This document shows positions 1-19,911 of a stretch of DNA of 64,000 nt, piece by piece. How positions within the stretch are numbered: the stretch's first letter is position 1; the number at the start of each line of letters is the position of its first letter. The stretch is from an uncultured Candidatus Melainabacteria bacterium (GTDB lineage: Bacteria > Cyanobacteriota > Vampirovibrionia > Gastranaerophilales > Gastranaerophilaceae), in the NCBI GenBank assembly GCA_947090755.1, contig CAMUPF010000002.1, positions 62,001 to 126,000 on the forward strand. Reading direction: 5' to 3'. The translations under genes and the position numbers were made by a program. The notes beneath the pieces were generated by a model, which had not been told where the DNA came from, made no database searches, and worked only from the letters and a program-made list of their open reading frames with translations.

Positions 1-3000
1 CTCGGCAGCGTTAACATAAAGGACAAGAAAAATCCGGATCTTAACCTTTCAATTTCAATGGACAAAACAAATGCACAGGAATTAATCCGACTTCTTCCGC
101 CTGAAAAAGACTTAATGCCGGAACTTAATTTCATCGCGCTCAAAAAACATTACTTCGACGGAAACGCACTTGCACACCTTGACGTCACCGGCAAAGCTGT
201 CAGACCGCTTCTTAACGGAAGTATTCTAATTACTGACGCGTACATGGTAAAACCGATTAAAAACGCCGGAAAAGCAACCATTAAACTCGTTTTCAAACGT
301 GACAAAATGACGCTTGAAACAAATGTTCCGACAGCCCCTAAAGAGCGCGTATGGGCAAACGGCGTTTTCGATCTTTATGATGAAAAAAGATGTACTTTAA
401 ACGTAAAATCCACCCCGAATATTGACCTTGAAACCGCACAAACAGTCCTCAACCCGTTACAGGAAATAATTAAAATCGATTTTGGCCCCGTTCCTTTGAT
501 GAAAATCCTCGGCACAGGAAATATTGACATAAATGTAAACGGAAATGTCGCGGACCCGCATATTACCGGAGCGTTTAAATTCAAAAACGCCAAGGTTTCG
601 TTTAACGATATGCCAAATTTAGTAATAAAAAACGGAGCCGGAGAACTTACCTTCAACGACACAGATACTTTATTCAAAACCACCTCCGCAACGCTTAATT
701 CTAATCCTGTAAGCGTTACCGGCACCTGCACTCTTCAAGGCGTTTTCAATTTCTTTGCAAACACTAAGAACCAAAATCTGACCAAACTTCTGGCTGATAT
801 CAAAGGCAACACTCTTCTTGCCGATTTGAACAACTACTTTGAGCAGATTGAAAATATCAAGGGAATAGGGGATTTAGACCTGAATATCTTCGGAACAATA
901 AAAGATATTAATGAAATCGAATTTAACAAAAACATTTTTTCAAAAGGCAAAATCGGCCTGAACGCTGTAACAATTAAGCCAAAAGGCGTTCCGCAGGCTA
1001 TTTCCAACATTTTTGGCAATATTGAAATTGACAACAAAGACCTTCTCATGAATCTTTATGCGCTAATAAACATGTCAAAAATTACAATTGAAGGGAAAAT
1101 CAAAGACACAGACGCTAATCTTCTTGTAAAAACAAAAGATTTCAGACTCATCGACGGGATTTCAACACTTCCGATAGATTTGCAGAAAACTATTCTAACC
1201 CTTATAAAATCTAACGAAATTATGAACCTTATTCCGGCGATAAACACTAACTTTACCGCCAAATACAAGGGCCCGATTGAAAATATTCAGCCGCAAAATC
1301 TTGAAGTTTACGGAACCGTTCTATCAGACAACCCTGCGTTCAAAAAATCTAATTACGAACTTACAAACGGCACGCTTAAATTCAGCCCGATAAAAATTAA
1401 GACAAAAGACCTTCAACTGGACACAAACGCAACAGTTTCAAACATTTTAACAGATAAACAGTCCCTTTCCGGCGCTCTGGTGCTTAAAGATTTCGACCTT
1501 AATCTTATCAATATAAACACGCTTAAAAATATTCCCGAACTAAAATCGCTCACTTCAACGCTTGAAAATCTGAGCGGAAAAATAAATATTAACGCGGTAA
1601 CACAAAGCAACAATACTACCGCTAACTGCACATTACAGGGAATAAAAATTCAGGAAAACCACCGGACCCACGAAATCCTAAGCGGAAAACTAAGAATTCG
1701 TAACGACCAGCTTTTAACTGACGGTATAAACGCCAGATTCTTTGACATGCCGGTACTTCTAAACGGCAGAATTTCGCTGGTTGACAAGAAACTCCCGTCT
1801 TATCATTTCTGGCTTAACACAAAGCCAAATCAGGAATTCGTCAACAGCTGCTTCAACAAAAATGCGCTCTATCCGATAAAAATCAAAGGCGATATAAAAA
1901 TGGATGCCGAAATTTCAGGCACCGCACAGAATACCAATATAAAATCCGACCTCCTTCTAAACAAGGACTCTTCGATTTACTACATGGGCGCAACACTGGG
2001 TGACAACGCAAATGCCGTAAAACTTACCTCAAACCTGACACTTCATGGCAGCGAACTAAAAATCAACAACTTTAACTATGATAAACTTGTTCTTTCTCTG
2101 GACAAAAACGAAAATATCGTGCCATTGTTGAATATTTCGGGCGGAATGGCATACTCTACGGATAACCTTATCAAATTTAACAACCTGAAAATCAAATCTA
2201 AAATGCCGGTTGACGCAAAAATCTTCAACATAATCTTCCGCAAGCCGTTCATGAAAGAAGGTGTATTCACCTCCGACCTGACGCTCAACGGTAACTCAGT
2301 TAAACCGCAGGTTCTTGGTAAACTTAACGTTATGGACATAAATATTCCGCTTTTTGAAACCAATATTAATAACATAAATTTTGACTTCACCCCTAAAGCT
2401 ATTAATATCCTTTCTAAAGGCGACCTTGTGACGAACAAAATCCAACTTGCAGCGGCGCTTAAAAACGACCTTTCACTCCCGCTTCAGGTCGATAATATGA
2501 ATATCCATGTGGCACAGCTTGACGTCAACAAAATCCTTGACAAAATTAAGCATATCGAAGAATCTAATTTCAAAATGCATTCAACTTCAAGCGTTATACA
2601 ACCGTTAGATTACACAAACTTTATCGTTAATAATGCCAAAATATCCGCCGATAAAATACTTATCGACAAAATTATCGCGGATAATTACATCAGTACTCTT
2701 GAAATCGGACGCGATAAAATTCTGAAACTCAAAAACTTTAACTTTGACCTTGCAGAAGGAACCGTAACCGGTAACATTACACACAATTACAGCAATGATA
2801 AGCTTTACCTTGACCTAACACTGAATAAAGCAAACGCTGCCCAAATGGCTGAAACCTTATTCAAAATCAAAGGCCAGTTATACGGTCTTGCAAACGGAAA
2901 AATTTCAATTTCCTGCGACGCTAAAAATGACAAAACCTGCCTTGCAACCTTAAGCGGTAACGGCAACTTTGAAATTCAGGACGGTAAAATGCCAAAACTT

Positions 3001-5089: not shown

Positions 5090-5113
5090 AAAAGCGCCCA
5101 TCGGGCGCTTTTT
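5088..5113. terminator. Bidirectional intrinsic terminator
   Basis: A-run, then GCGCCC-ATC-GGGCGC stem-loop and T-run. It lies between the convergent nucleotidase gene and the minus-strand pilin gene, so it can end transcripts from both sides. Confidence 0.85.
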
Positions 5114-6140
5114 AACGTTTAACACATCTTATAGAATGATAATACGAGGCGGCAGCCGGATATCTTGACCCTGCGTCAAAATTCTGCCCCCAATGCGAAC
5201 TAAGATTTATTTTAGAACTTGATAAAAGTCCGCTTGTAATATTACCGATGAACTCACGGTTGTAAAACATCGCACTCAACTCATCCCTATTTGGCAAACG
5301 ACTTTCAGCATCCTGCTGTGTACAAAGTTTGCTTGCGCCCTCCGGTTGTGACATACTTGAGGTATTTCGGTTTAATGGCATTGGTGCGACAATCACAGGG
5401 TCAGTAGGATAAAGCGCCGTAATGAACCCAATATCTTTACCGACGGTATTAGGGCCTTTATTACCGTTCAAATCATAAATAAAATTCACACACATTTTAG
5501 GTTGCGAGTAATGCCAGCCAGTTTCCCCCATATCCGGCTGACAAGAAGGGTTATAGTATACCGCTATAGATTCCCCGTTCGCAGTTTCAAAAGCTGCGGC
5601 TTTTGTATCAATATCTTTTTGAGGGTTGATAATAGTTTCGTCATAAGCACTTGTAAACATCGGGTTCATTTCACTAAGTTTCATAGGCCAAACACGTGTA
5701 CTTCCTGCGATATTTGTATACGAAGACGGAATTCCACAGTCAGGAAGGTGTTCATTGTCACAAATATTGTTAATTTTAAGAACTTTAGAAAGGCCTTCTG
5801 TTACAAAGGTTTCAGTGGCCGTGTCAACGGCGGAAGCAGAATCTGTTGCGGCTGTGAACGTTCCGTAACCGTTGAGCGCCGGCATTAGTGCGATTGCTTG
5901 TGAAAACCGCGCATAAAGCGCTTTTCTCTGCGTGTTCCAAGTGCGTTCGTTAATGTTACCTGTCAGCGACGGCAAAGTTATCGCCGCAACAACACCAATT
6001 ATTGTCAATGACAATAAAATCTCTGCCATCGTGAATGCTCGGAACGCCGGCACTCCGCCCTTCGCGTTAATTTTCACGTCGTCCGCAAGCACGGAACGCA
6101 TATATGGCACCGGCTCAGCCGGCCCCCCCCCCCCCTGCAT
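5112..6140 (-). CDS. Prepilin-like protein with lectin-like C-terminus, phase-variable copy 1
   Basis: The mature part begins at FTMAEILLSLTIIG, a type IV pilin / type II pseudopilin N-terminus with Glu at +5 and a hydrophobic helix. Prepilin peptidase would cleave A|F, so Ala replaces the usual Gly at -1. The C-terminus (SRLPNRDEL ... RYPAA ... IRCVKR) resembles DUF1566-type lectin-like folds, so it may be an adhesive pilin. The ATG at 6140 lacks a ribosome binding site. A better start is the ATG at 6165, with GTGAGGAT just upstream, encoding MKKASVLTYA before a 13-G tract, but that frame stops at a TGA just past the tract. One G fewer, or two more, would join start and pilin. A paralogue lies at 18797-19744 on the same strand. 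Confidence 0.82.
   Translation of the reverse strand: MQGGGGPAEPVPYMRSVLADDVKINAKGGVPAFRAFTMAEILLSLTIIGVVAAITLPSLTGNINERTWNTQRKALYARFSQAIALMPALNGYGTFTAATDSASAVDTATETFVTEGLSKVLKINNICDNEHLPDCGIPSSYTNIAGSTRVWPMKLSEMNPMFTSAYDETIINPQKDIDTKAAAFETANGESIAVYYNPSCQPDMGETGWHYSQPKMCVNFIYDLNGNKGPNTVGKDIGFITALYPTDPVIVAPMPLNRNTSSMSQPEGASKLCTQQDAESRLPNRDELSAMFYNREFIGNITSGLLSSSKINLSSHWGQNFDAGSRYPAAASYYHSIRCVKR
6123..6135 (-). repeat. Poly-G tract (13) inside the prepilin leader
   Basis: Thirteen consecutive C on the + strand (G on the coding strand). The tract lies between the SD-preceded ATG at 6165 and the pilin frame, which are 25 nt apart modulo frame, so the present length puts them out of frame by +1. 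Such homopolymers are typical contingency-locus slippage sites. Sequencing or assembly error in the tract length cannot be excluded. Confidence 0.85.
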
Positions 6141-6224
6141 AAGTTAATACACTAGCTTTTTTCATATAATCCTCACTTTCTGTATACATTAATTATGCAG
6201 CATGTTTCAACATTAGTCAAGGGG

Positions 6225-7161: not shown

Positions 7162-7617
7162 TTGGACGTAAGACAACCATTACAAGCGTTTGAACAAGAC
7201 GGTGTTGAAGAAGTAAACTTAGGACAACACGTACTGGCAGAATTTTTTGAATGTGACCCTAACATTTTAAATAGCATTGACAAAGTAGAAAAATATATGG
7301 TAGACGCAGCACTTGAGTGCGGAGCGACTATTGTACAAAAGTGTTTTCATATGTTTAACCCGTACGGCGTATCGGGTGTTGTAATTATTTCGGAAAGCCA
7401 TTTAGCAATTCACACCTGGCCGGAACTTGGTTATGCGGCCGTTGACTTGTTCACTTGCGGTGACAAATGCGATCCAAAAATTTCTTATGAGTTTTTGAAA
7501 AAGAAATTCCACTGCCAAAATGCAACGTTTACTGAATTAAAACGCGGTATTTTGAATAAAAACACAATGAAAGTTTCAGAAAAACCTTTCGAAATCGCTG
7601 AACAGATTTGTGGGTAG
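7162..7617 (+). CDS. speD: S-adenosylmethionine decarboxylase proenzyme
   Basis: 151 residues. Decarboxylates S-adenosylmethionine to supply aminopropyl groups for spermidine synthesis. The self-cleavage motif ISESHLAIHTWPE is intact: cleavage before S79 would create the pyruvoyl group, and H84 and C99 keep the +5 and +20 spacing of the small bacterial class. The start is TTG at 7162, 8 nt after a perfect AGGAGG (7148-7153). An ATG at 7157 is only 3 nt from the AGGAGG and opens a 4-codon frame overlapping the true start. No spermidine synthase gene is nearby. Ends at a strong bidirectional terminator. Confidence 0.93.
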   Translation: MDVRQPLQAFEQDGVEEVNLGQHVLAEFFECDPNILNSIDKVEKYMVDAALECGATIVQKCFHMFNPYGVSGVVIISESHLAIHTWPELGYAAVDLFTCGDKCDPKISYEFLKKKFHCQNATFTELKRGILNKNTMKVSEKPFEIAEQICG

Positions 7618-7631
7618 AGGGAAATATATTT

Positions 7632-7672
7632 AATAATAAAAGGGCTGTCTTTATGACAGCCCTTTTATTATT
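7632..7672. terminator. Bidirectional intrinsic terminator
   Basis: Perfect 18-bp inverted repeat containing GGGCTGTC-loop-GACAGCCC flanked by A/T tracts, between convergent speD and the glycosyltransferase gene. Confidence 0.9.
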
Positions 7673-7689
7673 GATATCAAATAATGGTT

Positions 7690-8685
7690 TCACAATAATT
7701 TTTTAGAATTAATCAAATTCAGAACATGCGCCGGTTTTATTGATTTCATACAAGGGGTGTGTTTTTGGCCTTCTTTTAACTTAGCACATTCTTTTTGCCA
7801 GCAATATTTACATTCAATCATAGGCTCAACGACGTAACCGTTTTGTCCATAAGGGCTCACATTTTCGGGGTTCGTTGACCCGTAAATACCAACAGTTTTC
7901 ACGCCAAGACCCGAAGCAATATGTAACGGGCCGGAATCTCCGGAGATAAACAGGTCACACAAAGAAAACAGAGCCATACTCTCTGCAATAGAAAGTTCAC
8001 CGGAAAGCAAAACTGCCCCGTCAATCTTATCAGCTATTGTTTTATGGTAATCTTTTTCATCAGGCGAGCCGGAAACCAATATTGTTCCGCCGTAAATTTG
8101 TTTTAAAAGATTTCCGAATTCTACCCAGTATTTGGCAGGCCAGGTTCTACCCTGACGGTTTTTATCAGTTTGGCCTCCCGGAGAAAAAACTATCAACGGG
8201 TGCGCGAAGTTAGATACACGGGATTTCATCTTTTCAAGTGCTGCGCTATCAAGACCAAGACGAAGATTTTTTGGTTGTTTTAGCTTCGGAAACGCTTTTT
8301 GAGCCGCAAGGAAAAACGCATAAACGACATGCTTATGGCCGCGCGGAACCTTACCGTATTTTTCTTTAGGGTTTGCAATAAATGTCATAAAGTTATTTCT
8401 AAATGCATTCGTAAGATTAAAAATAACATCATAGTGCTCGTGACGAAGCTTAAGCGCGATTTCAAGGTTATACGAAAAATCTTTTTTACGCTTATGGTCA
8501 AATTCAATAATTTTATCGATATCAGGATTATGTTGCAAAACGTGTACATATCTTGATTCACAGCAATAGTGAACCTCATAATGAGGATATTTGGCCTTAA
8601 TCGCCTGCGCAATAACCGTTGTATGCACAATATCACCCAGCGCACCAAATCTTAATATAAGTATTTTTTTAGTTTCATCAGCCAT
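7690..8685 (-). CDS. Glycosyltransferase family 9 (heptosyltransferase-like)
   Basis: 331 residues from MADETKK. Two Rossmann-like halves; the N-terminal LRFGALGDIVHTT is the GT9 acceptor-side motif, and the C-terminal SGDSGPLHIASGLGVKTVGIYG is the nucleotide-sugar binding motif of the WaaC/WaaF family. These enzymes add heptose to the LPS core, which fits kdsA in this window. A Cys cluster (CKYCWQKEC) near the end is unusual but seen in some GT9 proteins. The frame extends 17 residues further to 8736, but the ATG at 8685 is preferred: an extended -10 (TGTTATCAT, 8701-8693) lies 7 nt upstream, suggesting a leaderless message. Confidence 0.88.
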   Translation of the reverse strand: MADETKKILILRFGALGDIVHTTVIAQAIKAKYPHYEVHYCCESRYVHVLQHNPDIDKIIEFDHKRKKDFSYNLEIALKLRHEHYDVIFNLTNAFRNNFMTFIANPKEKYGKVPRGHKHVVYAFFLAAQKAFPKLKQPKNLRLGLDSAALEKMKSRVSNFAHPLIVFSPGGQTDKNRQGRTWPAKYWVEFGNLLKQIYGGTILVSGSPDEKDYHKTIADKIDGAVLLSGELSIAESMALFSLCDLFISGDSGPLHIASGLGVKTVGIYGSTNPENVSPYGQNGYVVEPMIECKYCWQKECAKLKEGQKHTPCMKSIKPAHVLNLINSKKLL

Positions 8686-8692
8686 AACATTT

Positions 8693-8701
8693 ATGATAAC
8701 A
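8693..8701 (-). promoter_or_regulatory. Extended -10 box 7 nt before the glycosyltransferase start
   Basis: TGT-TATCAT read on the minus strand; the gap to the ATG at 8685 is 7 nt, so transcription would begin at about the start codon. No clear -35 and no Shine-Dalgarno sequence. Confidence 0.4.
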
Positions 8702-8772
8702 TAAAAATTTTTCCATACCACTAGAATATATTTCAAATATAGTGTATAATAATACAGAATAAAGGAACCGGA

Positions 8773-10680
8773 ATGTCATTTTTTAGTAAGATAAAAGAAT
8801 TGACAAAACGAATAAACGAAGTTGAAAGCGCAGTATATTATCAAAAACAAGATTATATTGAGATATACGAGCGTAATATTGCGCTGGAAAAAGAGCTGGC
8901 ACAACAGACTAAAGAACTGACTATGGCTAATAAAAAAATGGTTACGCTCCAGCATATCATAGATATGATGACGTCCTCAAAACCGCTCGAAAATGTTCTT
9001 GATAATATTGTTAACAGTATCTCCAACGAATTTGGCTATGTCCACGGTGCTATTTTGCAGAAAATGAAGGATGAAAAGGGTGATTATATTAAAATCATTT
9101 CTCAGTCAAACGATACTGCTATTGAAAACCTTCACAACGTAATCCATGCACCGCTTTATACCCTGCGTTTAAACTATTCACCTGTAGGTATATACGCAGA
9201 AGCTATGCGCTCTGGAGAAATCACCCAAACACAGAACCTCGGTCAGACTTTACAAGAAATCATGCCTGCAATTACTGATGAACAGATAAGCCAGATTCTT
9301 GATAAAGATTACTGCCAGTCTATGATTATTATTCCGCTTAATTGTATGAATAAGCATTTCGGCTGGTTCGTCGTCTTTTCTTCACGCGAAGAACTCGCAA
9401 GTTCTGAAACAGATTTTTTAAGCATCTTCGGCAAACAAATTGAAATGGCTATAACAATTGCCCACCTATTCTCAACCGTCAAAGAACAGGCCGTAACCGA
9501 CGGGCTTACAGGGCTATACAACCGCCGCTATTTTGAAGAATACATAAAAAAAGAAGTTACGCGTGCTAATCGCCAAAAACAGCCGTTTTCTATTATTGGT
9601 CTTGACTTAGACTTCTTAAAACAAATTAACGATAAATACGGACACGCATTTGGAGATTTAGCAATAAAAACGCTTGCCGATGTAATCAAAAATAACGCTC
9701 GTTCCATTGATATTGCAGCACGTATGGGCGGTGAAGAGTTTAATATAATCTTACCGGGCGTTGATTCTAAAGGCGCACTTGTCGCGGCTGAACGTATCAG
9801 AAAAACCCTTGCGGCTCAAGAACTTGACACAATCGGCCATATAACAGCAAGTATCGGCGTCGCAACATATTTTGAACACACAGACAACGCCGAAGAACTT
9901 CTGGAACTGACCGATCAGGCGATGTATGAGTCAAAACGCAACGGAAGAAACCGTGTTACACTCGCCACTCCAATCTCCGAAACAAGCTGGCAGGAAATCG
10001 CTATCAATACATTTATTGATATTTTGTCCAAGCACAATATTCCTGTTGAAAAAAATGTAAGCAAAGAACTTTGCGAAAAACTCAAAGACACCGAGCAAAA
10101 CCGGAAATCACAACCTAAAGAAACCCTTTACGTTGTCGCCGATATGCTGACAAGACTTTACAACCCGCTTCACGAGGAAGGTGTTGTCAAAAAGAAAGTT
10201 TTAATAGCGTCCTCACTGGCTAAACGCTTTGATTTATCAAAAGAAGAAATCGACCATTTAAAAATCGCGATTCTTATGTACGATATCGGCAATTTGATGA
10301 TTCCGCAAGAGATTCTGCAAAAAACCGCGCCTTTAACAGAAGAAGAAAAAACATTCATCAAAGAACATCCGATTATTGCGGCGCGCGACATACTGAAACC
10401 GATTTCTGTTGTACAGGACATCATCCCGATAATTGAAAAACACCACGAAAACTGGGACGGAACCGGTTATCCTAACAAACTTGCAAAAGACGAAATTCCT
10501 ATGAGTTCTCAAATCATCCTGATTATCGACTCATATTTTGCGCTCACGGAAACCCGTCCGTACCGCGCCAAAATGTCTGAAAAAGACGCGCTTAAAGTTA
10601 TCAAACAGGACGCAGGCAAAAAATGGAACGCAGAACTCGTTAAAGAATTTATCGCAATCATTAAAAACGAACTCAAATGA
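8773..10680 (+). CDS. GAF-GGDEF-degenerate HD-GYP signalling protein
   Basis: 635 residues. Order: N-terminal coiled coil (1-65), a GAF-like sensor (about 70-225), a GGDEF domain (about 235-395) with the active-site motif GGEEF, and an HD-GYP domain (about 440-630). The diguanylate cyclase half looks active. In the HD-GYP half the distal HHENWDGTGYP motif is kept, but the HD metal motif reads YDIGN instead of HDIGK, so loss of c-di-GMP hydrolysis is likely. It overlaps thiL by 4 nt (ATGA). Soluble; no membrane segments. A second GAF-GGDEF-HD-GYP protein at 36186 keeps both motifs. Confidence 0.88.
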   Translation: MSFFSKIKELTKRINEVESAVYYQKQDYIEIYERNIALEKELAQQTKELTMANKKMVTLQHIIDMMTSSKPLENVLDNIVNSISNEFGYVHGAILQKMKDEKGDYIKIISQSNDTAIENLHNVIHAPLYTLRLNYSPVGIYAEAMRSGEITQTQNLGQTLQEIMPAITDEQISQILDKDYCQSMIIIPLNCMNKHFGWFVVFSSREELASSETDFLSIFGKQIEMAITIAHLFSTVKEQAVTDGLTGLYNRRYFEEYIKKEVTRANRQKQPFSIIGLDLDFLKQINDKYGHAFGDLAIKTLADVIKNNARSIDIAARMGGEEFNIILPGVDSKGALVAAERIRKTLAAQELDTIGHITASIGVATYFEHTDNAEELLELTDQAMYESKRNGRNRVTLATPISETSWQEIAINTFIDILSKHNIPVEKNVSKELCEKLKDTEQNRKSQPKETLYVVADMLTRLYNPLHEEGVVKKKVLIASSLAKRFDLSKEEIDHLKIAILMYDIGNLMIPQEILQKTAPLTEEEKTFIKEHPIIAARDILKPISVVQDIIPIIEKHHENWDGTGYPNKLAKDEIPMSSQIILIIDSYFALTETRPYRAKMSEKDALKVIKQDAGKKWNAELVKEFIAIIKNELK

Positions 10681-11564
10681 TGGAAAAAGTTTTCATACAA
10701 CTAATAAAAGAAACCCTAAATTCCTGCTACATCGGCGACGATTGTGCATATTTAAAGGATTTAGGTATAGTAATTTCTCAGGACAGTCTTGTCGAAGGTG
10801 TTCATTTTCTGCGCGATAAAATAACCCCGTGGCAATTAGGCCGGAAAACCGCAATGGTAAACATTTCAGACATCTGCGCAAGCGGCGCCGAACCCGCTTA
10901 TATGACTGTCGCACTTTCACTGCCTAAAGGTACAAACTCAGACTTTGTAAAAGAGTTCTATGAAGGCCTAAAATCCGCTTGCGGCACAGTTGAAATCGTA
11001 GGCGGTGACATCACTGCAGCAGATAAAATATTTATTTCTGCAACCGCAATCGGCAAAACTGCAGGCCGCAATATCAGTTCGCGGGGCCACGCTCAAATCG
11101 GCCAAAAAATTATTGTTTCAGGCCCCCACGGTTCAAGCGGCGCAGGGCTAAAGCTGCTTCTTGGGGGCAAACCCACACCTGAAAACTTAATCAAAGCACA
11201 TCTTGAACCCGTTGCACAGCGAGAATTTTCCGTAAAAATTGCGACTACACAAAAAACGCCTTACGCGATGATGGATACCTCCGACGGGCTTATGGACGCG
11301 CTTTCGCAAATTTCAGAAGCCAGCGGCGTTCAGATGTCTGTTGATTTTGCCAAAATCCCTTTTAATGAAGAAATCAAAATGTTTAGTGACTGGCGGGAAC
11401 TCGTTCTTTTTGGCGGCGAAGATTACCAGATTATAGCAACCGTTGATACACCGCCGGCCGCTGCAACAGTAATAGGCGAAGTTAGAAAAGGTTCGGGCGT
11501 TAACCTTAACGGAAAAATTTATTCAAAAGAATTAATTGAATCTAAAATATTTAAACACATATAA
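10677..11564 (+). CDS. thiL: Thiamine-monophosphate kinase
   Basis: 295 residues, shorter than the usual ~320. Phosphorylates thiamine phosphate to thiamine diphosphate with ATP. Recognisable family motifs are IGDDCA near the start, the KTAMVNISDICASGAEP segment, GGD in the middle, MMDTSDGLMDAL, and FGGEDYQI near the C-terminus. The ATG overlaps the TGA of the preceding cyclase gene, so translation is probably coupled although the functions are unrelated. An inverted repeat follows the stop. Confidence 0.92.
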   Translation: MMEKVFIQLIKETLNSCYIGDDCAYLKDLGIVISQDSLVEGVHFLRDKITPWQLGRKTAMVNISDICASGAEPAYMTVALSLPKGTNSDFVKEFYEGLKSACGTVEIVGGDITAADKIFISATAIGKTAGRNISSRGHAQIGQKIIVSGPHGSSGAGLKLLLGGKPTPENLIKAHLEPVAQREFSVKIATTQKTPYAMMDTSDGLMDALSQISEASGVQMSVDFAKIPFNEEIKMFSDWRELVLFGGEDYQIIATVDTPPAAATVIGEVRKGSGVNLNGKIYSKELIESKIFKHI

Positions 11565-11567
11565 GCA

Positions 11568-11593
11568 ACGCGCCAGCCTTCAGGCTGGCGCGT
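11568..11593. terminator. Strong hairpin after thiL
   Basis: 12-bp perfect inverted repeat around a 2-nt centre (ACGCGCCAGCCT / AGGCTGGCGCGT). The following bases are not T-rich on the + strand, so termination is likely but atypical. It also lies 3' of the small minus-strand gene. Confidence 0.6.
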
Positions 11594-11637
11594 ACTTCTT
11601 CATATTTCAGCTAATTCTTAACGTAATCCTTTGTCCA

Positions 11638-11811
11638 TTACATTGCAGTAACGTGATAATCATTCTCCACATTATGTGTTGTTGAAGCAAAAAATTTGTT
11701 CAAAAATGCTTCAAAATTTCGTTGCAATCCTGCAACTTCTGCTTTTAAATCTGCAAAATTTTCTTCTTTAGCCTGTGCAACAGCTTTTTCAAATAACTCG
11801 TCGTAATACAT
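11638..11811 (-). CDS. Small acidic protein, 57 aa, unknown
   Basis: A 57-residue frame starting MYYDELFEKAVAQAKEEN with AGGAGT 7 nt before the ATG. The central part (FADLKAEVAGLQRNFEAFLNKFF) is a probable amphipathic helix with heptad spacing. No motif recognised. The good ribosome binding site and absence of a competing frame support a real gene. It is convergent with thiL. Confidence 0.6.
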   Translation of the reverse strand: MYYDELFEKAVAQAKEENFADLKAEVAGLQRNFEAFLNKFFASTTHNVENDYHVTAM

Positions 11812-11956
11812 AATCTATACTCCTATTTACTAACATTCCCAATATCGGCACTCTTTTTTCAAAACTTTAACTTTTTTAAGCATTTTGTTACAAATATTTA
11901 TCAAAATATAGAATTTTCATATTTTATAATCTATAATGCATGAATAAGAGGTAATT

Positions 11957-12793
11957 ATGGCATTAGATTTTGGTATGAGTACCTACGACTATTACTCAAG
12001 CCGTAGAGATATGGAAGTTATCGCACAAATAGTTGACGCATTAAAAGAAATTCTTGAAGAAGATTCAAAACAACCACAGCCGCTGTTTTTGAAGATTTCA
12101 GACAATTTGATTATGAACATAGCCAGAATGGCAGTTCAGGAACGAAAAAAAACATTTCTTATCGGTATCACCGGCGAAAGCGCCTCCGGTAAAACCGTTT
12201 TCGTTGACAACACCATTAAAGCCTGCGTTAAAAGCGAAAACGAAGGGATTTATACCGTAATCCGCTGTGATGATTACTACAAAGACACCTCTAAAGAACT
12301 AAAAGAAGCAGGAAGTTACGAAGCACTTTTTAAAACAGGTTTCAGCTTTGACACACCTGATGTTGTAGACCTTGAATTAATGAAAAGCCATCTTATTGAC
12401 CTAAAAGCCGGCAAAGACATTTATTCACCACTATACAACTTCGTGACCTGCGAATCTAAACTCAATAGCGAACTAAAAAAACCTGCCCGCGTAATCTTAA
12501 CCGAAGGGCTTTATGTCTTAAACGAGAATGTTCGCGACGTAATGGATGTAAAAGTATACGTTTTCACCCCGCTTGAAGTGTTAAAAGACCGCTGGTACAG
12601 ACGTGCAGAATCCCGTGGCAAGACCGGTGAAGCGGCTGATTTACAATTTGCCGACGTAAATAAAACCGCACAGCAATACATCCGCCCGACTTACCAGATA
12701 GCAGACGCCGTAATCAACGGGCTTGTAAGTCAGGAATATATCCAGGAAATTACAAACAAAATCCTAAAAAAATTAAAAGCAATAGAATTATAA
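11957..12793 (+). CDS. Uridine kinase-like P-loop protein
   Basis: 278 residues. After an N-terminal helical extension (1-65), a P-loop kinase domain of the uridine kinase / phosphoribulokinase family: Walker A GESASGKT (73-80), RCDDYYKD as the substrate-side loop, FDTPDVVD, and a Walker B-like VILTEGLYVL. The C-terminal DRWYRRAESRGKTG matches the lid region. Substrate could be uridine/cytidine or another small metabolite. GAGGT lies 5 nt before the ATG, and two TATAAT boxes (11925-11930, 11932-11937) lie just upstream. Confidence 0.78.
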   Translation: MALDFGMSTYDYYSSRRDMEVIAQIVDALKEILEEDSKQPQPLFLKISDNLIMNIARMAVQERKKTFLIGITGESASGKTVFVDNTIKACVKSENEGIYTVIRCDDYYKDTSKELKEAGSYEALFKTGFSFDTPDVVDLELMKSHLIDLKAGKDIYSPLYNFVTCESKLNSELKKPARVILTEGLYVLNENVRDVMDVKVYVFTPLEVLKDRWYRRAESRGKTGEAADLQFADVNKTAQQYIRPTYQIADAVINGLVSQEYIQEITNKILKKLKAIEL

Positions 12794-12804
12794 CGGCTTT
12801 TACA

Positions 12805-12835
12805 AAAAAAGGCCTCGCAATGCGAGGCTAAAATT
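12805..12835 (+). terminator. Intrinsic terminator
   Basis: GCCTCGC-AAT-GCGAGGC hairpin after an A-run and followed by TAAAATTTT. Moderate U-tract. Confidence 0.65.
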
Positions 12836-12905
12836 TTGTTAGGAAATAGGAATAAGGAATATAACTCTCTCTCGTCTTATATATATAAAGTATATAAACC
12901 GAACT

Positions 12906-13290
12906 CAAATTCAACAACACGCATTTTCTTTACAAAATTTAACACTTGACGGTTACGGAACCTACCAGTTTGCAGACGCAATGGCAGGTATAATTAATTC
13001 TTGGCTGACTAAATTAAGTGAATTGAACTCAATGTTCACAGGTACGTGAAACGACGGTACTTCTAACGGTGGTAGAAACTACACAACCCCACAAAAAGAC
13101 ATTGATACCTTCGCTGCTGCATTTGAAACGCAGAACGGGGAATCTATCGCCGTTTACTACAATCCGTATTGTCAAATTGATATGCAGGAAACAGTATGGT
13201 ATTATTCTCAACCAAAAATGTGTGCTAACTTTATCTATGACTTAAATGGTAACAAAGGGCCAAACACTGTTGGCAAAAATTATAAATAAT
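12906..13290 (+). pseudogene. Broken prepilin/lectin-like fragment (third copy)
   Basis: Frame 0 translation from about 12906 matches the middle of the two pilins at 5112 and 18797: LDGYGTY corresponds to ALNGYGT, KLSELNSMF to KLSEMNPMF, then KDIDTFAAAFETQNGESIAVYYNP, and QPKMCANFIYDLNGNKGPNTVGK. It lacks the pilin N-terminus and start, has an in-frame TGA near 13047, and stops right after NTVGKNYK, so the lectin-like C-terminus is also missing. It lies on the opposite strand from the intact copies. Either a dead remnant or a silent donor cassette. A strong terminator follows. Confidence 0.8.
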
Positions 13291-13295
13291 ACCAC

Positions 13296-13327
13296 AGGCG
13301 CGGAGCGTTGCTCCGCGCCTCTCTTTT
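13296..13327. terminator. Intrinsic terminator
   Basis: AGGCGCGGAGC-GTT-GCTCCGCGCCT stem followed by CTCTTTT. Lies between the pilin remnant and the convergent protease gene. Confidence 0.8.
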
Positions 13328-13979
13328 AACCATTATGTTTGGAAATAAATTTTTTCGCGTCGTTAATCGGTATGGCAAAACCGATTCCGATATTCGATAT
13401 ATTATTATCCGGGTTATAAATAGACTGGTTAATCCCGATAACTTCGCCGGACGTATTCAACAACGGCCCGCCGGAACATCCCGGGTTAATCGCCGCGTCT
13501 GTCTGGATTTTCCCTTTAGCATAATCTATCCTTGAAATTATACCCTGCGTCAGCGTTCCCGAAAATCCAAACGGATTACCAATAGTCAGCACTCTCTGAC
13601 CGATTTTCAGCCCGTCAGAATCTCCGAGTTTCACAGTCTTCAACCTTGTCTTCGGTTCAATTTTAATTAAAGCCAAATCCTTGTTTTTCCCCATATTCGC
13701 AAGCACTTTCGCCTTATAAACTTTACCGTCATAAGTCGTAACTTCAAGTTCCTTCGTCTGCGAAACAACATGCGAACCCGTCAAAATCGTTCCGTCCGTA
13801 TTAATTATACATCCGGTTCCGGCAGTAAAACCGTCCGAAATTATACCATCAATCGTGACAATCGCAGGGTTTATATTCTCATAAACCGAAATATAAACCT
13901 CTTCCTCAGCCGTATAGGCAAAGACCAGCCCCGTAGATAACGTTAATATACTCATTAGAAACAATACAAATTTTCTCAT
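13326..13979 (-). CDS. HtrA/Deg-like trypsin-family serine protease without PDZ domain
   Basis: 217 residues. A signal peptide (1-21, hydrophobic core, cleavage near VFAYT) sends it to the periplasm. The trypsin-like fold has the triad H70 (TGSHVV), D101 (KDLALIK) and S169 (NPGCSGGPLL). Typical HtrA proteins are longer and carry one or two PDZ domains after the protease; none is present, so it may be a minimal protease. A GAGGG ribosome binding site precedes the ATG. Probable role: envelope protein quality control. Confidence 0.87.
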   Translation of the reverse strand: MRKFVLFLMSILTLSTGLVFAYTAEEEVYISVYENINPAIVTIDGIISDGFTAGTGCIINTDGTILTGSHVVSQTKELEVTTYDGKVYKAKVLANMGKNKDLALIKIEPKTRLKTVKLGDSDGLKIGQRVLTIGNPFGFSGTLTQGIISRIDYAKGKIQTDAAINPGCSGGPLLNTSGEVIGINQSIYNPDNNISNIGIGFAIPINDAKKFISKHNG

Positions 13980-14060
13980 TTTCTTGCCCTCTTACAAATC
14001 CATTTTCACCCGTGCTATAATGTGAAAAAATAGGTATTGTAATATTGTAAAGATATATTC

Positions 14061-14089
14061 TTGTAATTATTAAAGTTTTAATGTATACT
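14061..14089 (+). promoter_or_regulatory. Promoter of the ycf23-like gene
   Basis: TTGTAA (14061-14066), 17-nt spacer, TATACT (14084-14089); leader of about 36 nt with AGGAGAAA before the ATG. Confidence 0.6.
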
Positions 14090-14131
14090 TGTGTTGAAAG
14101 TACACTTCATTAAATAGGAGAAATGTAAAAA

Positions 14132-14890
14132 ATGTCTAGAATCGAATTATTTAAACAACATTTAATCGAAAAAAGAGCGGTAAAAGTTATTGCAGGTATT
14201 GATAACTTTGATATCGAAAATATTAAAAAAGTTGTTTCATCAGCACAAATCGCAGGCGCAAGCGCTATTGATATCTGTGCAGACGAAAAAATTATCTCTG
14301 AAGTTAGAGAAATGACAGATTTGCCATTGTTCGTATCTTCAGTTGTTCCATCTGAACTTGCCAGAGCAGTTGAACTTGGCGCTGACGCTATCGAACTTGG
14401 TAACTTCGACGCACTTTACAAAAAAGGCATGGCTTTCTCTGCAAATGAAGTTATGAACCTTGTTAAAGAAACTTTGTCATTGTTAGGCGAAAACAGAGTA
14501 TTCTTCTCTGTAACAATCCCTGGTGAAATCTCAATCGCTGAGCAAATTGAATTGGCCAGAGAACTTGAATATATGGGAATCAACCTTATCCAAACAGAAG
14601 GTCACTACACATCTAAAGAAAACCTTGATGGTGTAAGAGGCTTAATGAACAGAGCAGAATTAACATTGTCAAACACAATTGAACTTGCAAGAAACGTTGA
14701 TATGGCTATTATGACAGCAACAGGCATCAACTCAACGACAGCACCGTTCGCATTCGCAGCAGGCGCAAGCGCAATCGGCGTTGGTTCTTGCGTAAACAAA
14801 TTAAACTCAGAACTTTCAATGATTGCAACAATCAAATCTATCGTTGAAATCGCTGCTAAAAACAAACAAGAAGTTCTTGAACTTGTTTAA
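14132..14890 (+). CDS. Ycf23/DUF561-family TIM-barrel protein
   Basis: 252 residues. Alternating beta/alpha pattern of a TIM barrel: KVIAGIDNFD, AGASAIDICAD, LPLFVSSVVP, GADAIELGNFDALY, FFSVTIPG, GINLIQTEG, and the phosphate-binding-like AFAAGASAIGVGS at the end. Ycf23/DUF561 is conserved in cyanobacteria and plastids with no settled function, so its presence supports a cyanobacterial-lineage host. Single-gene transcript with its own promoter and terminator. Confidence 0.85.
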   Translation: MSRIELFKQHLIEKRAVKVIAGIDNFDIENIKKVVSSAQIAGASAIDICADEKIISEVREMTDLPLFVSSVVPSELARAVELGADAIELGNFDALYKKGMAFSANEVMNLVKETLSLLGENRVFFSVTIPGEISIAEQIELARELEYMGINLIQTEGHYTSKENLDGVRGLMNRAELTLSNTIELARNVDMAIMTATGINSTTAPFAFAAGASAIGVGSCVNKLNSELSMIATIKSIVEIAAKNKQEVLELV

Positions 14891-14908
14891 TTCAAATTTA
14901 AATATTGC

Positions 14909-14938
14909 AAGGCGCGGGTCACAACCCGCGCCTTTTTT
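14909..14938 (+). terminator. Intrinsic terminator
   Basis: GGCGCGGGT-CACA-ACCCGCGCC stem followed by six T. Confidence 0.88.
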
Positions 14939-15018
14939 ATATTGTAGAACGGGGGAATGTGATATTTTTCCATGTCCGTGTTATTATAGATTTATCAGAT
15001 ACCAATTGGAGAGGAAAA

Positions 15019-17658
15019 ATGATAGGTTTACTATTGAAATTGTTGGGCGATCCTAACGAACGCAAAGTTAAAAATATATTAGGGATAATAGAACACATCA
15101 ACGCACTTGAACCACAGTTTGCAGAAATGTCAGACGATGAATTACGCGCAAAAACACAAGAATTTAAAGAAATTTTAGCAAACCGTAAAACATCTGACGA
15201 TTTTATGACCGACAGAAAGTTGGAAAAAGAAACATTAGACAAAATTTTACCCGAAGCTTTTGCGACGGTAAGAGAAGCCGGCAAACGTGTCTTGAATATG
15301 CGCCACTTTGACGTTCAGTTAATAGGCGGTTACTTCTTACACAACGGTCACATCACAGAGATGAGAACCGGTGAAGGTAAAACCCTTGTTGCGACGCTTC
15401 CGGCATATCTTAACGCTTTGACAGGCAAAGGCGTTCACGTTGTAACCGTCAACGATTACCTTGCAAAACGTGACAGCGAATGGATGGGTAAAATTTATGA
15501 ATTTTTAGGATTAACCGTTGGCGTTGTGCTTTCCGGCACCCACGGGCCTAACGAATACGAAGAAAAACGCCACGCTTACAATTGCGACATCACTTATGGA
15601 ACAAACAACGAATTCGGGTTTGATTATCTTCGCGACAATATGGCGCAAAGCAAAGAAATGCTTGTCCAACGCCCTTACAACTACGCGATTATCGACGAAG
15701 TCGACAGTATCTTAATTGATGAAGCAAGAACTCCGTTAATCATCAGCGGCCGACTTGAAAAATCCGCAGAAACCTATCTTTTGATGGCGGAAATTGCGCC
15801 AAAACTTGAAAAAACAAAGGATTACGAGGTTGATGAAAAGAACAAAAACGTAATTCTCACCGAGGACGGTATCGACCACGCACAGGAACTTCTGGGCGTA
15901 ACCGATTTATTTGATGTTTCAACCCAGTACGCGCATCATCTTTTACAAGCATTGAAGGCAAAAGAACTTTATATTCGCGACACAGACTACGTTGTTAAAA
16001 ACGGCGAAGTTCAAATCGTAGACGAGTTTACCGGCCGTATTATGGAAGGCCGCCGCTGGTCTGAAGGCTTACATCAGGCGTTAGAAGCAAAAGAAGGCGT
16101 TAAAATTCAGGACGAAACCCAAACGCTTGCAAGCATCACTTACCAGAACCTTTTCAGACTTTATCCGAAACTTTCCGGTATGACTGGTACCGCAATGACA
16201 GAAGAAGCGGAATTCGGCAAAATCTACAACCTTGAAGTTACGGTAATCCCGACAAACAAGCCGGACATAAGAAAAAATTACGCGGATAAAATTTATAAAA
16301 ACGAACTTCAAAAATATCTGGCGGCAGTAGAAGAAATTGCAGCGGTCCACGAAACCGGAAGACCGGTTCTTGTAGGTACAATCAGTATCGAAAAATCTGA
16401 ATTTGTATCAGAACTCTTAAAACGCCGCGGTATAAAACATAACGTGTTGAACGCTAAGCAGCACGAACGTGAGGCTTATATTATCGCTCAGGCCGGCAGA
16501 AAAGGTGCCGTAACCATCGCGACAAACATGGCAGGCCGCGGAACAGATATCCTGCTCGGCGGTAACGCTGAATTCCTCGCAAAAGAAAACCTCGATAGCA
16601 AAGGTATTACACCGGAACATCCGGACTACGAAAACTTCAAAAATGTTGCGCTTGATGAGGCAAGAAAAATCACAGAAGCCGAACACGCAGAAGTTGTAGA
16701 ACTTGGCGGCCTGCACGTTATCGGTACAGAACGCCACGAATCACGCCGTATTGACAACCAGTTACGCGGGCGTGCCGCACGTCAGGGCGACCCCGGCTCA
16801 ACAAGATTCTTTTTATCGCTTGAAGACAACTTAATGAGAATATTCGGCGGAGAAAAAATTACAGCCGTTATGAATATGCTTAACATCGACGAAACAATGG
16901 AAATTGAATCGCCGCTTATCACAAAACAAATTGAATCTGCACAAAAGAAAGTGGAAACTTACCACTTCGACATAAGAAAACACGTCCTTGAATATGACGA
17001 CGTTATGAATATTCAGCGTGAAAAATTCTACGCACAACGCCGCAAAGTTCTTTTCGGCCAGAACCTTTCTGAAGATATTCAATACATGATTGAACGCGAA
17101 GTCGACAGGATTTTACGCAGCTACATAGCCCCGGGGATGACACCTGATGAATACATCTTTGACGATTTAGTTACAATGGTAAAAGAAATCCACTCAACAA
17201 TCCCGCAGCTTTCACAACTTGATGTTAAAGATATTCAAGGCGTAAAATTCGACGCAATTTACGAAAAAGTAAAAGACCTTGCCGTTGACGCATACAAAAC
17301 TCACGAAGCGTCATTAATCAACTTCTACAACAGCGTACTTGAAAAATATGACCCTAATTTCATCCCGCAGCAACCGTTCAGTGATGAAAACATGGTTCGC
17401 GGACTTGAACGCGATATCTTATTGAAGACAATTGACGCGAAATGGATTGACCACCTTCACAACATTGATATGGTTCGCGAAAGCATCGGGCTTCGCGCAT
17501 ACGGTCAAAAAGACCCGCTTATCGAATACAAAAAAGAAGCGTACGATTTGTTTAACAAAATGATGTACGAAATTCAGGGCGAAACAGTAAAATATTTATT
17601 CCGTATGAAGTTCGGAATACAGATTATGAACAACCCTGTGGAAAATATGGAAGAATAA
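15019..17658 (+). CDS. secA: Preprotein translocase ATPase SecA
   Basis: 879 residues from the ATG at 15019, which has GAGAGG upstream and matches the usual SecA N-terminus; the frame is open 38 codons further up but crosses the preceding terminator. SecA drives Sec-dependent export with SecYEG at the inner membrane. Visible: Walker A MRTGEGKT (about 115-122), [17 protein letters not shown], the SGMTGTA motif, [31 protein letters not shown], and [17 protein letters not shown] of motor domain 2. The C-terminal Zn-binding SEC-C motif found in many SecAs is absent; the protein ends soon after the helical scaffold domain. Confidence 0.97.
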
Positions 17659-17671
17659 AGGAAAAAGATAA

Positions 17672-18769
17672 ATGTTAAGAACAGGTATAGTAGGACTTCC
17701 GAATGTCGGGAAATCAACGTTATTTAACGCGCTCACGAGCGCCAAGAATGCACAAAGCGCGAATTATCCGTTTTGTACAATCGAGCCTAACGTCGGCGTT
17801 GTTAACGTTCCGGACGAAAGACTGGAAATTTTAAAAGATTTATGCAAAGCTCAGGAAATAATTCCGACAGCGATTGAATTTGTAGACATCGCAGGGCTTG
17901 TAAAAGGCGCAAGCAAAGGCGAAGGCTTGGGCAACCAATTTTTACACAATATCCGCGAAGTTGACGCGATAATTCAGGTAGTAAGATGTTTTGACGACGA
18001 AAACACCATCCACGTAGCCGGAAAAGTTAACCCGCTCGACGACATCGAAACTATCAACACGGAACTTGCACTTGCAGACCTTGCTTCAGTTGAAAAACGT
18101 CTTGCACGTATCTCAAAACAGGCAAAAAGCGGCGACAAGGACGCTAAATTAGAAGAAAAAGTTTTGAATAAACTTGCCGAACTTCTCAACGAAAGCACAT
18201 TTATCAACATCAACGACCACTTTGAAGAAGACGAAATTCCGGTGGCAAAAATGCTTAACCTTATGTCAACAAAACCTGTGATTTATGTCGCAAACGTTGC
18301 CGAAACCGACATCAAAACCGGCAACGATTACACAAAACAAGTGGCCGAATACGCAAAATCACACGGTGCACAGACGGTTATAATTTCCGCTAGAATCGAA
18401 GAAGAACTTGCAGAACTCGGGCCGGAAGAGGCAAAAGAATATTTGGCAGAACTTGGCGTTGAAGACAGCGGTATCAACAGAATGATTAAATCAGTTTACA
18501 CATTGTTGAACCTGCGCACCTTCATCACAGCCGGCGAAAAAGAGGTTCACGCCTGGACTATTCCGGCAGGTGCAAAAGCACCTCAAGCCGCAGGTGTAAT
18601 CCACACGGACTTCGAAAAAGGGTTCATTCGTGCAGAAATCACGCCGTATAAAGATTTTGCAGAACTTGGCTCCTACGTTGCCTGCAAGGAAAAAGGCGTA
18701 ACACGTTTGGAAGGCAAGGACTACGTGGTCCAGGACGGCGACTTAGTTCACTTCAGATTTGCAGTATAA
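17672..18769 (+). CDS. ychF: Redox/ribosome-associated GTPase (ATPase) YchF
   Basis: 365 residues, full length. P-loop GLPNVGKST (8-16), G2/G3 DIAGLVKGASKGEGLGNQF, a coiled-coil insert, and the C-terminal TGS domain with the HAWTIPAGAKAPQAAGVIHTDFEKGF signature. YchF/OLA1 binds ribosomes and prefers ATP over GTP. It follows secA by 13 nt with its own AAGGAAAA site, so both are probably co-transcribed. Confidence 0.96.
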   Translation: MLRTGIVGLPNVGKSTLFNALTSAKNAQSANYPFCTIEPNVGVVNVPDERLEILKDLCKAQEIIPTAIEFVDIAGLVKGASKGEGLGNQFLHNIREVDAIIQVVRCFDDENTIHVAGKVNPLDDIETINTELALADLASVEKRLARISKQAKSGDKDAKLEEKVLNKLAELLNESTFININDHFEEDEIPVAKMLNLMSTKPVIYVANVAETDIKTGNDYTKQVAEYAKSHGAQTVIISARIEEELAELGPEEAKEYLAELGVEDSGINRMIKSVYTLLNLRTFITAGEKEVHAWTIPAGAKAPQAAGVIHTDFEKGFIRAEITPYKDFAELGSYVACKEKGVTRLEGKDYVVQDGDLVHFRFAV

Positions 18770-18770
18770 A

Positions 18771-18798
18771 AAAAAAGGAGCCTAACGGCTCCTTTTTT
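18771..18798. terminator. Bidirectional intrinsic terminator
   Basis: A-run, GGAGCC-TAAC-GGCTCC, T-run, between ychF and the convergent pilin gene. Confidence 0.87.
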
Positions 18799-19744
18799 AA
18801 CGTTTAACACATCGGACAGAGTTGATGTCAGATCGCGCCGCAGGGTAACGACGCCCAGCAATGAAATTTTGTGTCCATATTGTTCCTGTACTTCCTGCAG
18901 AAATGACCGAAGCCGACCAAAAAAGACTCGATGGCATACCTAAAAGAGTTTTATTATAGAACATCGCTGTCAATTCGTCACGATTTGGCAGTCTGCTTTC
19001 CGCGTCTTGTTTTTGACAAAGCCTACCGGCTTCTGTATATATACTTGAACCGGCATTTGCCTGCAATGGCATTGGCGCAACAACTACTGGGTCGGACGGG
19101 TAAAGCGCTGTGATAAATCCTATATCTTTACCAACAGTATTTGGCCCCTTATTTCCATTCAAGTCATAAACAAAATTTGCACACATTTTCGGTTGCGTAT
19201 AGTGATAAATTGTTTCATTCATATCTGCAACACAGTTCGGATTATAGTAAACGATTATAGATTCACCGTTTTGGGTTTCAAACGCAGCGGCCTTCGTATC
19301 TAATTGTTGATAGGAATAGTTCATTGCGCCATCTGTTGCATCACTATTAGCGCTATTAAAAATCGGGTTCAAACCAACCAAAGTATTATATGCTGTTGTA
19401 AAAGAACTAAGAACATCACCGTTCATAGCAGTAACAGAATCAGGAATCCCGCAATCAGTAAGATGGGCATAGTCGCAAATATTATTTATTTTAAGAACTT
19501 TTGCCAAGCCTTCAGTAACAAAGGTTTCTGCCGCAGTGTCGACCGCAGAGGTTGACTCATTGCCTTCGATTAAAGTTCCATATCCGTTCAACGCAGGCAT
19601 AAGCGCAATCGCCTGACTAAAACGGGCGTATAAAGCTTTGCGTTGAGTGTTCCAAGTGCGTTCGTTAATGTTACCCGTCAACGATGGCAACGTTATCGCA
19701 GCGACCACGCCGATGATGGTTAAAGATAATAATATCTCCGCCAT
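18797..19744 (-). CDS. Prepilin-like protein with lectin-like C-terminus, phase-variable copy 2
   Basis: Paralogue of the 5112-6140 gene. The N-terminal 55 residues of the mature part (from MAEILLSLTIIG) are the same in both; the middle and C-terminal parts differ but keep NPNC, QPKMCANFVYDLNGNKGPNTVGKDIGF, RLPNRDEL and RCVKR. The true start is the ATG at 19817 (GTGAGGAT upstream), giving MKNQKVLTCQ, whose VLT core matches copy 1. A 14-G tract then separates it from RSVKAVFAFTMAE. At the present length the upstream frame ends in a TAA at 19766-19764. One G fewer would restore a complete prepilin. In the pilin frame the only ATG (19744) is inside the mature N-terminus and useless as a start, so the gene is probably OFF as sequenced. 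Confidence 0.82.
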   Translation of the reverse strand: MAEILLSLTIIGVVAAITLPSLTGNINERTWNTQRKALYARFSQAIALMPALNGYGTLIEGNESTSAVDTAAETFVTEGLAKVLKINNICDYAHLTDCGIPDSVTAMNGDVLSSFTTAYNTLVGLNPIFNSANSDATDGAMNYSYQQLDTKAAAFETQNGESIIVYYNPNCVADMNETIYHYTQPKMCANFVYDLNGNKGPNTVGKDIGFITALYPSDPVVVAPMPLQANAGSSIYTEAGRLCQKQDAESRLPNRDELTAMFYNKTLLGMPSSLFWSASVISAGSTGTIWTQNFIAGRRYPAARSDINSVRCVKR

Positions 19745-19774
19745 GGTAAAAGCAAATACTGCCTTAACGGAGCG

Positions 19775-19788
19775 CCCCCCCCCCCCCC
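19775..19788 (-). repeat. Poly-G tract (14) inside the prepilin leader
   Basis: Fourteen consecutive C on the + strand. Start ATG (19817) and pilin frame (19744) are 73 nt apart, one more than a multiple of three; the same +1 offset as in copy 1. Confidence 0.85.
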
Positions 19789-19882
19789 TGACATGTCAAT
19801 ACTTTTTGGTTTTTCATAATTTTTTATCCTCACTTTCTATATAATCATTATTTATCATTTTTCACCTCATGTCAATATATGA

Positions 19883-19911
19883 TTGCCAATACGAAAAAAA
19901 TATGCTAGAAT
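19883..19911 (+). promoter_or_regulatory. Promoter of the receiver-like/GGDEF gene
   Basis: TTGCCA (19883-19888), 17-nt spacer, TAGAAT (19906-19911) with TGC before it (extended -10). AGAGAGG follows as ribosome binding site. Confidence 0.65.

Follow-up and report, generated by a model that had tools for sequence, protein, structure and literature searches.

Can a run of guanines placed between a start codon and a pilin reading frame act as a switch for the gene behind it? This question is raised by a prepilin-like gene, here termed copy 1, in a stretch of 64,000 nucleotides (the window, i.e., the whole stretch of DNA that was analyzed) from an uncultured gut bacterium of the cyanobacterial branch. 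The genome that holds the window belongs to the genus Gastranaerophilus, order Gastranaerophilales, and comprises 1.78 Mb in 53 contigs at 99.98% completeness; its SecA loci likewise point to Candidatus Gastranaerophilus / Gastranaerophilales.

A 13-G tract separates start codon and prepilin frame in copy 1

The ATG at position 6165 (reverse strand) is preceded by AGTGAGGA, which provides a Shine-Dalgarno (SD) sequence, and the plus strand carries exactly 13 C at 6123–6135, that is, 13 G in the direction of translation. As sequenced, the peptide MKKASVLTYA is continued by four glycines from four GGG codons, and GCC, GGC and the stop codon TGA follow. With 12 or 15 G, the same start would yield MKKASVLTYAGGGGPAEPVPYMRSVLADDVKINAKGGVPAFRAFTMAEILLSLTIIGVVAAIT, pass the 87-nt tail and enter an ORF that stays intact up to its end at 5112. 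The sequence-only reading had proposed precisely this arrangement, a G tract between an SD-preceded ATG and a prepilin frame that is one G out of phase and becomes complete with one G fewer or two more, and in both respects it was borne out. Runs of eight G are found at 13 positions of the window, all of them within two tracts; shuffled sequences lead one to expect 0.27 such positions, and the observed number was reached in none of 100 shuffles. The positions of all features are given in Table 1.

Table 1. Features of the two pilin copies and the pilin remnant (window coordinates) and of the retroelement locus L307.
Feature	Position	Strand	Remarks
Copy 1, -35-like TTGACT	6215..6220	(-)	read from sequence; 17 bp to -10
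Copy 1, -10-like CATAAT	6192..6197	(-)	read from sequence
Copy 1, head	6136..6165	(-)	SD-preceded ATG (6165); 10 codons, MKKASVLTYA
Copy 1, 13-G tract	6123..6135	(-)	ON at 12 or 15 G
Copy 1, tail	6036..6122	(-)	87-nt leader module PAEPVPYMRSVLADDVKINAKGGVPAFRA; only the ON frame is open
Copy 1, mature prepilin-like ORF	5112..6035	(-)	FTMAEILLSLTIIGVVAAIT..., 307 aa
Copy 1, C-terminal C-type-lectin-like domain	5115..5450	(-)	by homology to copy 2; boundary approximate
Copy 2, head	19789..19817	(-)	ATG 19817; MKNQKVLTC
Copy 2, 14-G tract	19775..19788	(-)	ON at 13 or 16 G; one G too many as sequenced
Copy 2, mature prepilin-like ORF	18797..19750	(-)	317 aa; residues 206-317 predicted C-type-lectin fold
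Copy 2, hypervariable end	18800..18922	(-)	residues 277-317; homologous to retroelement template, 63% identical
Remnant of a further pilin copy	12900..13290	(+)	without start or tract
L307, pilin 3' target end	1-131
L307, bAvd	529-897		PF22296, 48.3 bits (cut-off 40)
L307, template repeat	about 1041-1215
L307, reverse transcriptase	1261-2463

Copy 1 belongs to a genome-wide family of prepilin genes

Altogether, 111 tracts of at least nine G occur in the 1.78-Mb genome, and 102 of them were examined, each being read together with its flanks. Ninety of the 102 are linked to pilins, with a short coding head on one side and a type IV prepilin ORF, or a truncated version of it, on the other: 78 (57 of class A and 21 of class B) connect a head with a prepilin ORF, and 12 further tracts have the same head or tail and are mostly cut off at contig ends. 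Most copies possess their own sigma-70-like promoter, SD sequence, ATG, head, G tract, modular tail and near-invariant pilin N-terminus FTMAEILLSLTIIG. In class A, the promoter elements TTGA[CT] (45/57) and CATAAT (49/57) lie at median positions -53 and -31 relative to the ATG. Class A heads comprise 9–11 codons (27, 30 or 33 nt), occur as 50 distinct sequences and are devoid of stop codons in all 57 cases, and class B heads have about 16 codons. The tails of class A span 15 to 246 nt. Palindromic repeats, e.g., GTCATGCTGAACTTGTTTCAG, occur in tails with the frame maintained. A tail of 87 nt, the length seen in copy 1, is found in ten class A copies, and in most of these it is of the PAEPV type, as in copy 1. 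The VLT core that the sequence-only reading had considered conserved indeed recurs in the head of copy 2, but is present in just seven of the 57 class A heads. Comparison with about 90 sister loci of like design strongly supports its central claim of a phase-variable prepilin that is OFF as sequenced. None of the viral contigs searched carried a phage-borne pilin.

Three G13–15 tracts (C8:16311, C8:22354 and C8:23465; loci L075 and L076) lie within non-pilin genes, one of them in front of the hexapeptide-acetyltransferase-like sequence LIGNHVWVGCNV, which suggests that these are phase-variable surface-glycan genes.

Frame-keeping flanks and intact ORFs argue for translation through the tract

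We conclude, with a probability of about 0.83, that copy 1 is one of some 90 prepilin genes that act as translational contingency loci. The evidence that carries this conclusion lies on both sides of the tract. The length of every class A head is a multiple of three and so is that of 53 of 56 tails, while the tracts between them measure 13 G in 39 copies, 12 in 13, 11 in three and 9 in one, with copy 2 at 14 in addition (n mod 3 is 1 in 39, 0 in 14 and 2 in three); over all 78 copies the tract ranges from 9 to 14 G between flanks that are in frame. Where an in-frame tail measures 60 nt or more, the ON frame contains a stop codon in none of 28, and each of the other frames contains one in all 28. 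All 75 complete pilin ORFs (298–334 aa) are intact, including 58 that are out of phase, and nearest pairs of OFF copies have a median dN/dS of 0.22, so that OFF copies are evidently under purifying selection. As the set of copies was defined by tract and pilin motif, fully decayed copies such as the remnant in the window are not counted here. Two of the in-phase copies carry a stop codon in the tail. As sequenced, the OFF copies would give products with a median of 20 residues. Near-sister copies can be unequal in tract length (e.g., 13 G in C7:41187 and 12 G in C7:49701).

It is against these data that a start of the pilin elsewhere, with the G tract as a mere leader or 5'-untranslated region, has to be judged. 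The ATG at 6140, which the sequence-only reading had named as the start whose use would speak against a switch, is in frame at 13 G and opens an ORF of 342 aa, but it lacks an SD sequence, and an equivalent TATGCA is found in only 10 of the 57 class A heads; an SD-like start behind the tract exists in just four of 60 OFF copies. An alternative start would furthermore leave unexplained why the heads are free of stops and why tails of up to 246 nt are open solely in the frame of the upstream ATG, and we regard it as highly improbable. No better are the prospects of the proposal that OFF copies are decaying pseudogenes or that the tract chiefly serves recombination or mobility of cassettes. Variable occupancy of sites between species with clean empty sites, the remnant at 12900–13290 and heads and tails that look combinatorial among the pilin copies are all in line with it, yet decay is at odds with 75 intact ORFs out of 75 and a dN/dS of about 0.2, the copies are mostly old with synonymous sites near saturation, and mobility cannot account for frame-keeping on both sides of the tract. 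Because of frame-keeping flanks, tails open only in the ON frame and intact ORFs, translational phase variation fits far better than either decay or alternative starts.

Phase bias and reliability of tract lengths

With respect to the ON frame, the 78 copies comprise 55 with one G too many, 18 in phase and five with one G too few. We interpret this as a majority of OFF copies that are a single step away from ON. The assignment of ON and OFF states is provisional in that tract lengths stem from a metagenome-type assembly of 53 contigs, with one assembly per species. Homopolymers are error-prone, and the NN gaps that we found inside such tracts in relatives (L139 and G004) illustrate that tract lengths in metagenome assemblies are uncertain. 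Could the lengths be artefactual, most copies being really in phase with little or no OFF state? For this, a systematic over-call by one G would have to affect tracts of 13, 12 and 11 G equally, but stutter at homopolymers tends to make runs shorter, and the tracts recur with different modal lengths in separately assembled genomes of several genera. An artefact is thus unlikely.

The skew of 55 to 5 is not obviously expected under free slippage. It is the main support for a constitutive reading, according to which RNA polymerase or the ribosome slips on the G tract, so that every copy yields some in-frame product and tract length hardly matters. Slippage of this kind would account for intact ORFs in OFF copies, for frame-keeping flanks and for the skewed phase, and also for the situation in class B, where flank phase differs between subtypes and tract length tracks it, the same offset being kept (Fisher p=0.02). 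However, the offset is not universal: 18 copies here are in phase and other genera are one G short, a state that is the usual one in genus G027. In addition, Neisseria and Campylobacter have classical contingency loci in the form of variable tracts of at least nine G within ORFs (PMC5953494, PMC6321876). We give constitutive slippage a low probability, comparable to that of an assembly artefact and above that of decay or a start elsewhere. As MutS is present in the genome, slippage at contingency loci need not be fast. A universal programmed +1 shift is ruled out by the other genera, most of whose copies are one G short, and recent duplication is unlikely to be behind the shared phase, nearly all pairs being near synonymous saturation.

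The mature pilin is predicted to combine a helix with a C-type-lectin-like domain

Five copies that are naturally in phase score 19.5–22.0 bits with TIGR02532 (cut-off 16.3), and one of the five also exceeds the cut-off of PF07963. The genome encodes one PilD-type prepilin peptidase domain (PF06750 at C17:23433) and a PilB-like assembly ATPase (PF00437 at C36:7873, 422 bits), with three more ATPase matches over the cut-off. In an AlphaFold2 model of mature copy 2 (pLDDT 82; calculated from 23 sequences), the chain forms a long N-terminal helix and, at residues 206–317, a C-type-lectin fold. This fold is closest to the C-terminal domain of Legionella Lcl (8q4e), with Z 9.8 and an rmsd of 1.5 A over 91 residues; Bdellovibrio Bd2740 (8oks) also reaches Z 9.8, and Foldseek returned an E value of 1.2e-4. 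Sequence searches yielded only weak matches to relatives of solved structure, and the best score with the PF07603 (Lcl_C) profile was 28.4 bits, below the Pfam cut-off of 34.9. We therefore call the domain lectin-like by fold alone and do not assign it to PF07603. The mature pilin is thus predicted to consist of a helix and a variable C-type-lectin-like domain with putative glycan binding. Over 75 copies, residues 1–55 hardly vary (0.17 bits), in contrast to a hypervariable lectin domain (2.21 bits).

Pilin 3' ends bear the signature of a diversity-generating retroelement

A search for reverse transcriptases led to a complete diversity-generating retroelement outside the window (contig C19:27-2490, L307; Table 1). 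Nine further places in the genome match its template, eight of them at 80% identity or more. In these eight best ends, 103 of 234 template adenines are mismatched, compared with 46 of 817 other bases (p=2e-41), corresponding to a pooled mismatch rate of 44% at A versus 4–7% at C, G or T, and in the two closest ends all mismatches (14/14 and 15/15) are at adenines. Judged by this pattern in the sequences, the eight pilin-type lectin 3' ends bear the signature of adenine-directed mutagenesis. Two of them, C15:39002 (G11, in phase) and C21:15514 (G12, out of phase), are assembled up to the 5' end and prove to be G-tract pilins of class B, as does the weaker ninth match (C15:14080); the remaining six of the eight are found at the end of a contig or close to it. 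All six congeners have both template and reverse transcriptase, and template identity is 71% in G005 and about 96% in the other five.

Within class A, the window copies included, variability also peaks at residues that align with template Asn codons (3.64 versus 2.37 bits, p=1e-5). The end of copy 2 is 63% identical to the template and lacks a strong adenine bias. From these alignments, the two pilin copies of the window may represent targets of the retroelement that are older or have been archived.

Two other loci deserve mention. At C16:36898 (L308), a second retroelement-like locus has a reverse transcriptase beside a 127-nt repeat (219–345 and 861–987) with 13 mismatches, all at adenines of one copy, and adjoins a lysozyme-like ORF (prophage-like). 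The reverse transcriptase at C11:36717 (L309) is of the retron type, retron St85-like by NCBIfam, below the cut-off.

A model for lectin-pilin display and its relation to known systems

In the mechanism that we propose, slipped-strand mispairing would alter the tract by one G. In the OFF state, translation would stop after about 20 codons, and in the ON state it would read through into the prepilin, which would be cleaved by the single PilD-like peptidase and then become part of a type IV pilus, probably in the role of a minor or tip subunit. In this way, every cell would show a small random subset of lectin-pilins. We lean, if only slightly, towards extending this to a display in two layers, in which the retroelement would write new lectin specificities into the ends of the pilin genes, copies would build up throughout the genome as archived variants (class A) and the G tracts would randomly expose or hide about 90 lectin-pilins.

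Both poly-G phase variation and retroelements are familiar; this gene family stands out by its scale, its lectin-like domain and the union of the two mechanisms. The sequence-only reading had cited homopolymer-controlled pilins of Neisseria and Campylobacter as precedents. These hold loosely: poly-G switching exists there, but the Neisseria tract sits in pilC and not in pilE. To our knowledge, there is no case of poly-G switching of a type IV pilin in Campylobacter. In Neisseria, the G tract is located in the gene for PilC, a retraction and adhesion factor, pilE varies by recombination, and repeats occur in just 23 of 607 pilS alleles (PMC5953494). Campylobacter phasomes are rich in poly-G, and C. 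jejuni has 18–39 phase-variable genes from mixed families, with 81 in one outlier (PMC6321876). Neisseria (pilC, pglA, lgtA) and Campylobacter resemble the loci described here in having a tract of at least nine G near the start of a surface-related ORF where a change by one G would switch the frame, but where the phase-variable genes of C. jejuni come from mixed families, the tracts described here belong to about 90 paralogues of a single pilin family. The Neisseria G tracts lie in pilC and pilin-modifying genes, those described here in the pilin genes themselves. The pilE/pilS system is similar in its many pilin copies, variable C-terminal region and variation of display, but it relies on gene conversion into a single expression locus, whereas most copies here have their own promoter and start and would be switched by tract length.

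Bordetella Mtd-type retroelements share with L307 the order target end, bAvd, template repeat and reverse transcriptase, adenine-biased differences and targets of C-type-lectin fold. Diversity-generating retroelements with pilin-tip targets occur in Bacteroides. In contrast to known retroelements, at least nine template-like ends are dispersed here in type IV pilin proteins, and the targets, where assembled, also sit behind a switchable G tract. Legionella Lcl (PF07603) is alike in the fold of its C-terminal domain, which is carried there on a collagen-like stalk and here on a type IV pilin helix. The modular pilins of Streptococcus sanguinis are, as far as is known, single-copy and stably expressed. 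Their combination of a pilin module with an adhesive module in PilB and PilA/PilC (PMC8179133, PMC9934059) is a further parallel, but here the repertoire is large and phase-variable and the adhesive part C-type-lectin-like.

A paper on Melainabacteria mentions pili genes and nothing more (PMC5877343). In the openly accessible journal papers searched, we found neither a report of pilin phase variation in Gastranaerophilales or Melainabacteria nor a lectin-pilin repertoire in which G-tract switching and retroelement mutagenesis come together. Most known cases of multi-locus phase variation come from pathogens; whether this reflects database bias is a question put by a 2025 review (PMC11868660). 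In this uncultured gut lineage, G tracts outnumber any count of phase-variable genes in the available part of the Campylobacter survey, and nearly all belong to one pilin family. As many pilin genes are out of phase in the assembly, annotation of such genomes would seem to miss or truncate them. G-tract switching and a retroelement acting on the same domain provide a testable model of a commensal that would diversify and ration its surface adhesins, and the model bears on what these bacteria bind in the gut.

G tracts and pilin sites in relatives

Tracts number 86–118 per genome in five other Gastranaerophilus species and are missing in a sixth; the range is 0–90 in other genera of the family and 0–6 in other families of the order. 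In other genera of the family, the architecture recurs with G10–12. One congener (G002/L187) has a copy with 11 G and a different tail at the site of copy 1; in G001, G003 and G006 this site is vacant, and the genes on either side of it abut or almost abut. L139 lacks the copy 2 cassette. In the relative L140, the neighbors that flank the remnant in the window enclose an intact pilin copy with a G12 tract. The sixth species, G005, lacks any tract of at least nine G and has only ten matches to the copy 1 region, but retains the retroelement, possibly a natural loss of the switch. Gene order in L187 is rearranged relative to window positions 7600–19900 with pilin copies at the breakpoints, and their positions suggest recombination between dispersed pilin copies.

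A hairpin between the SD sequence and the region behind the tract was considered and dismissed, copy-specific pairing being absent in four groups of copies. At loci in other genera (L148, L165, L172 and G027), CTCC or GCTCCT, complementary to the SD sequence, is often found just 3' of the tract. G019, another genus of the family, has about 88 G tracts (e.g., at L240–L247), many of which are different in kind: G10 stands directly 5' of TAA and a terminator-like hairpin and encodes a C-terminal poly-Gly (...VTYKVTQAGGG*).
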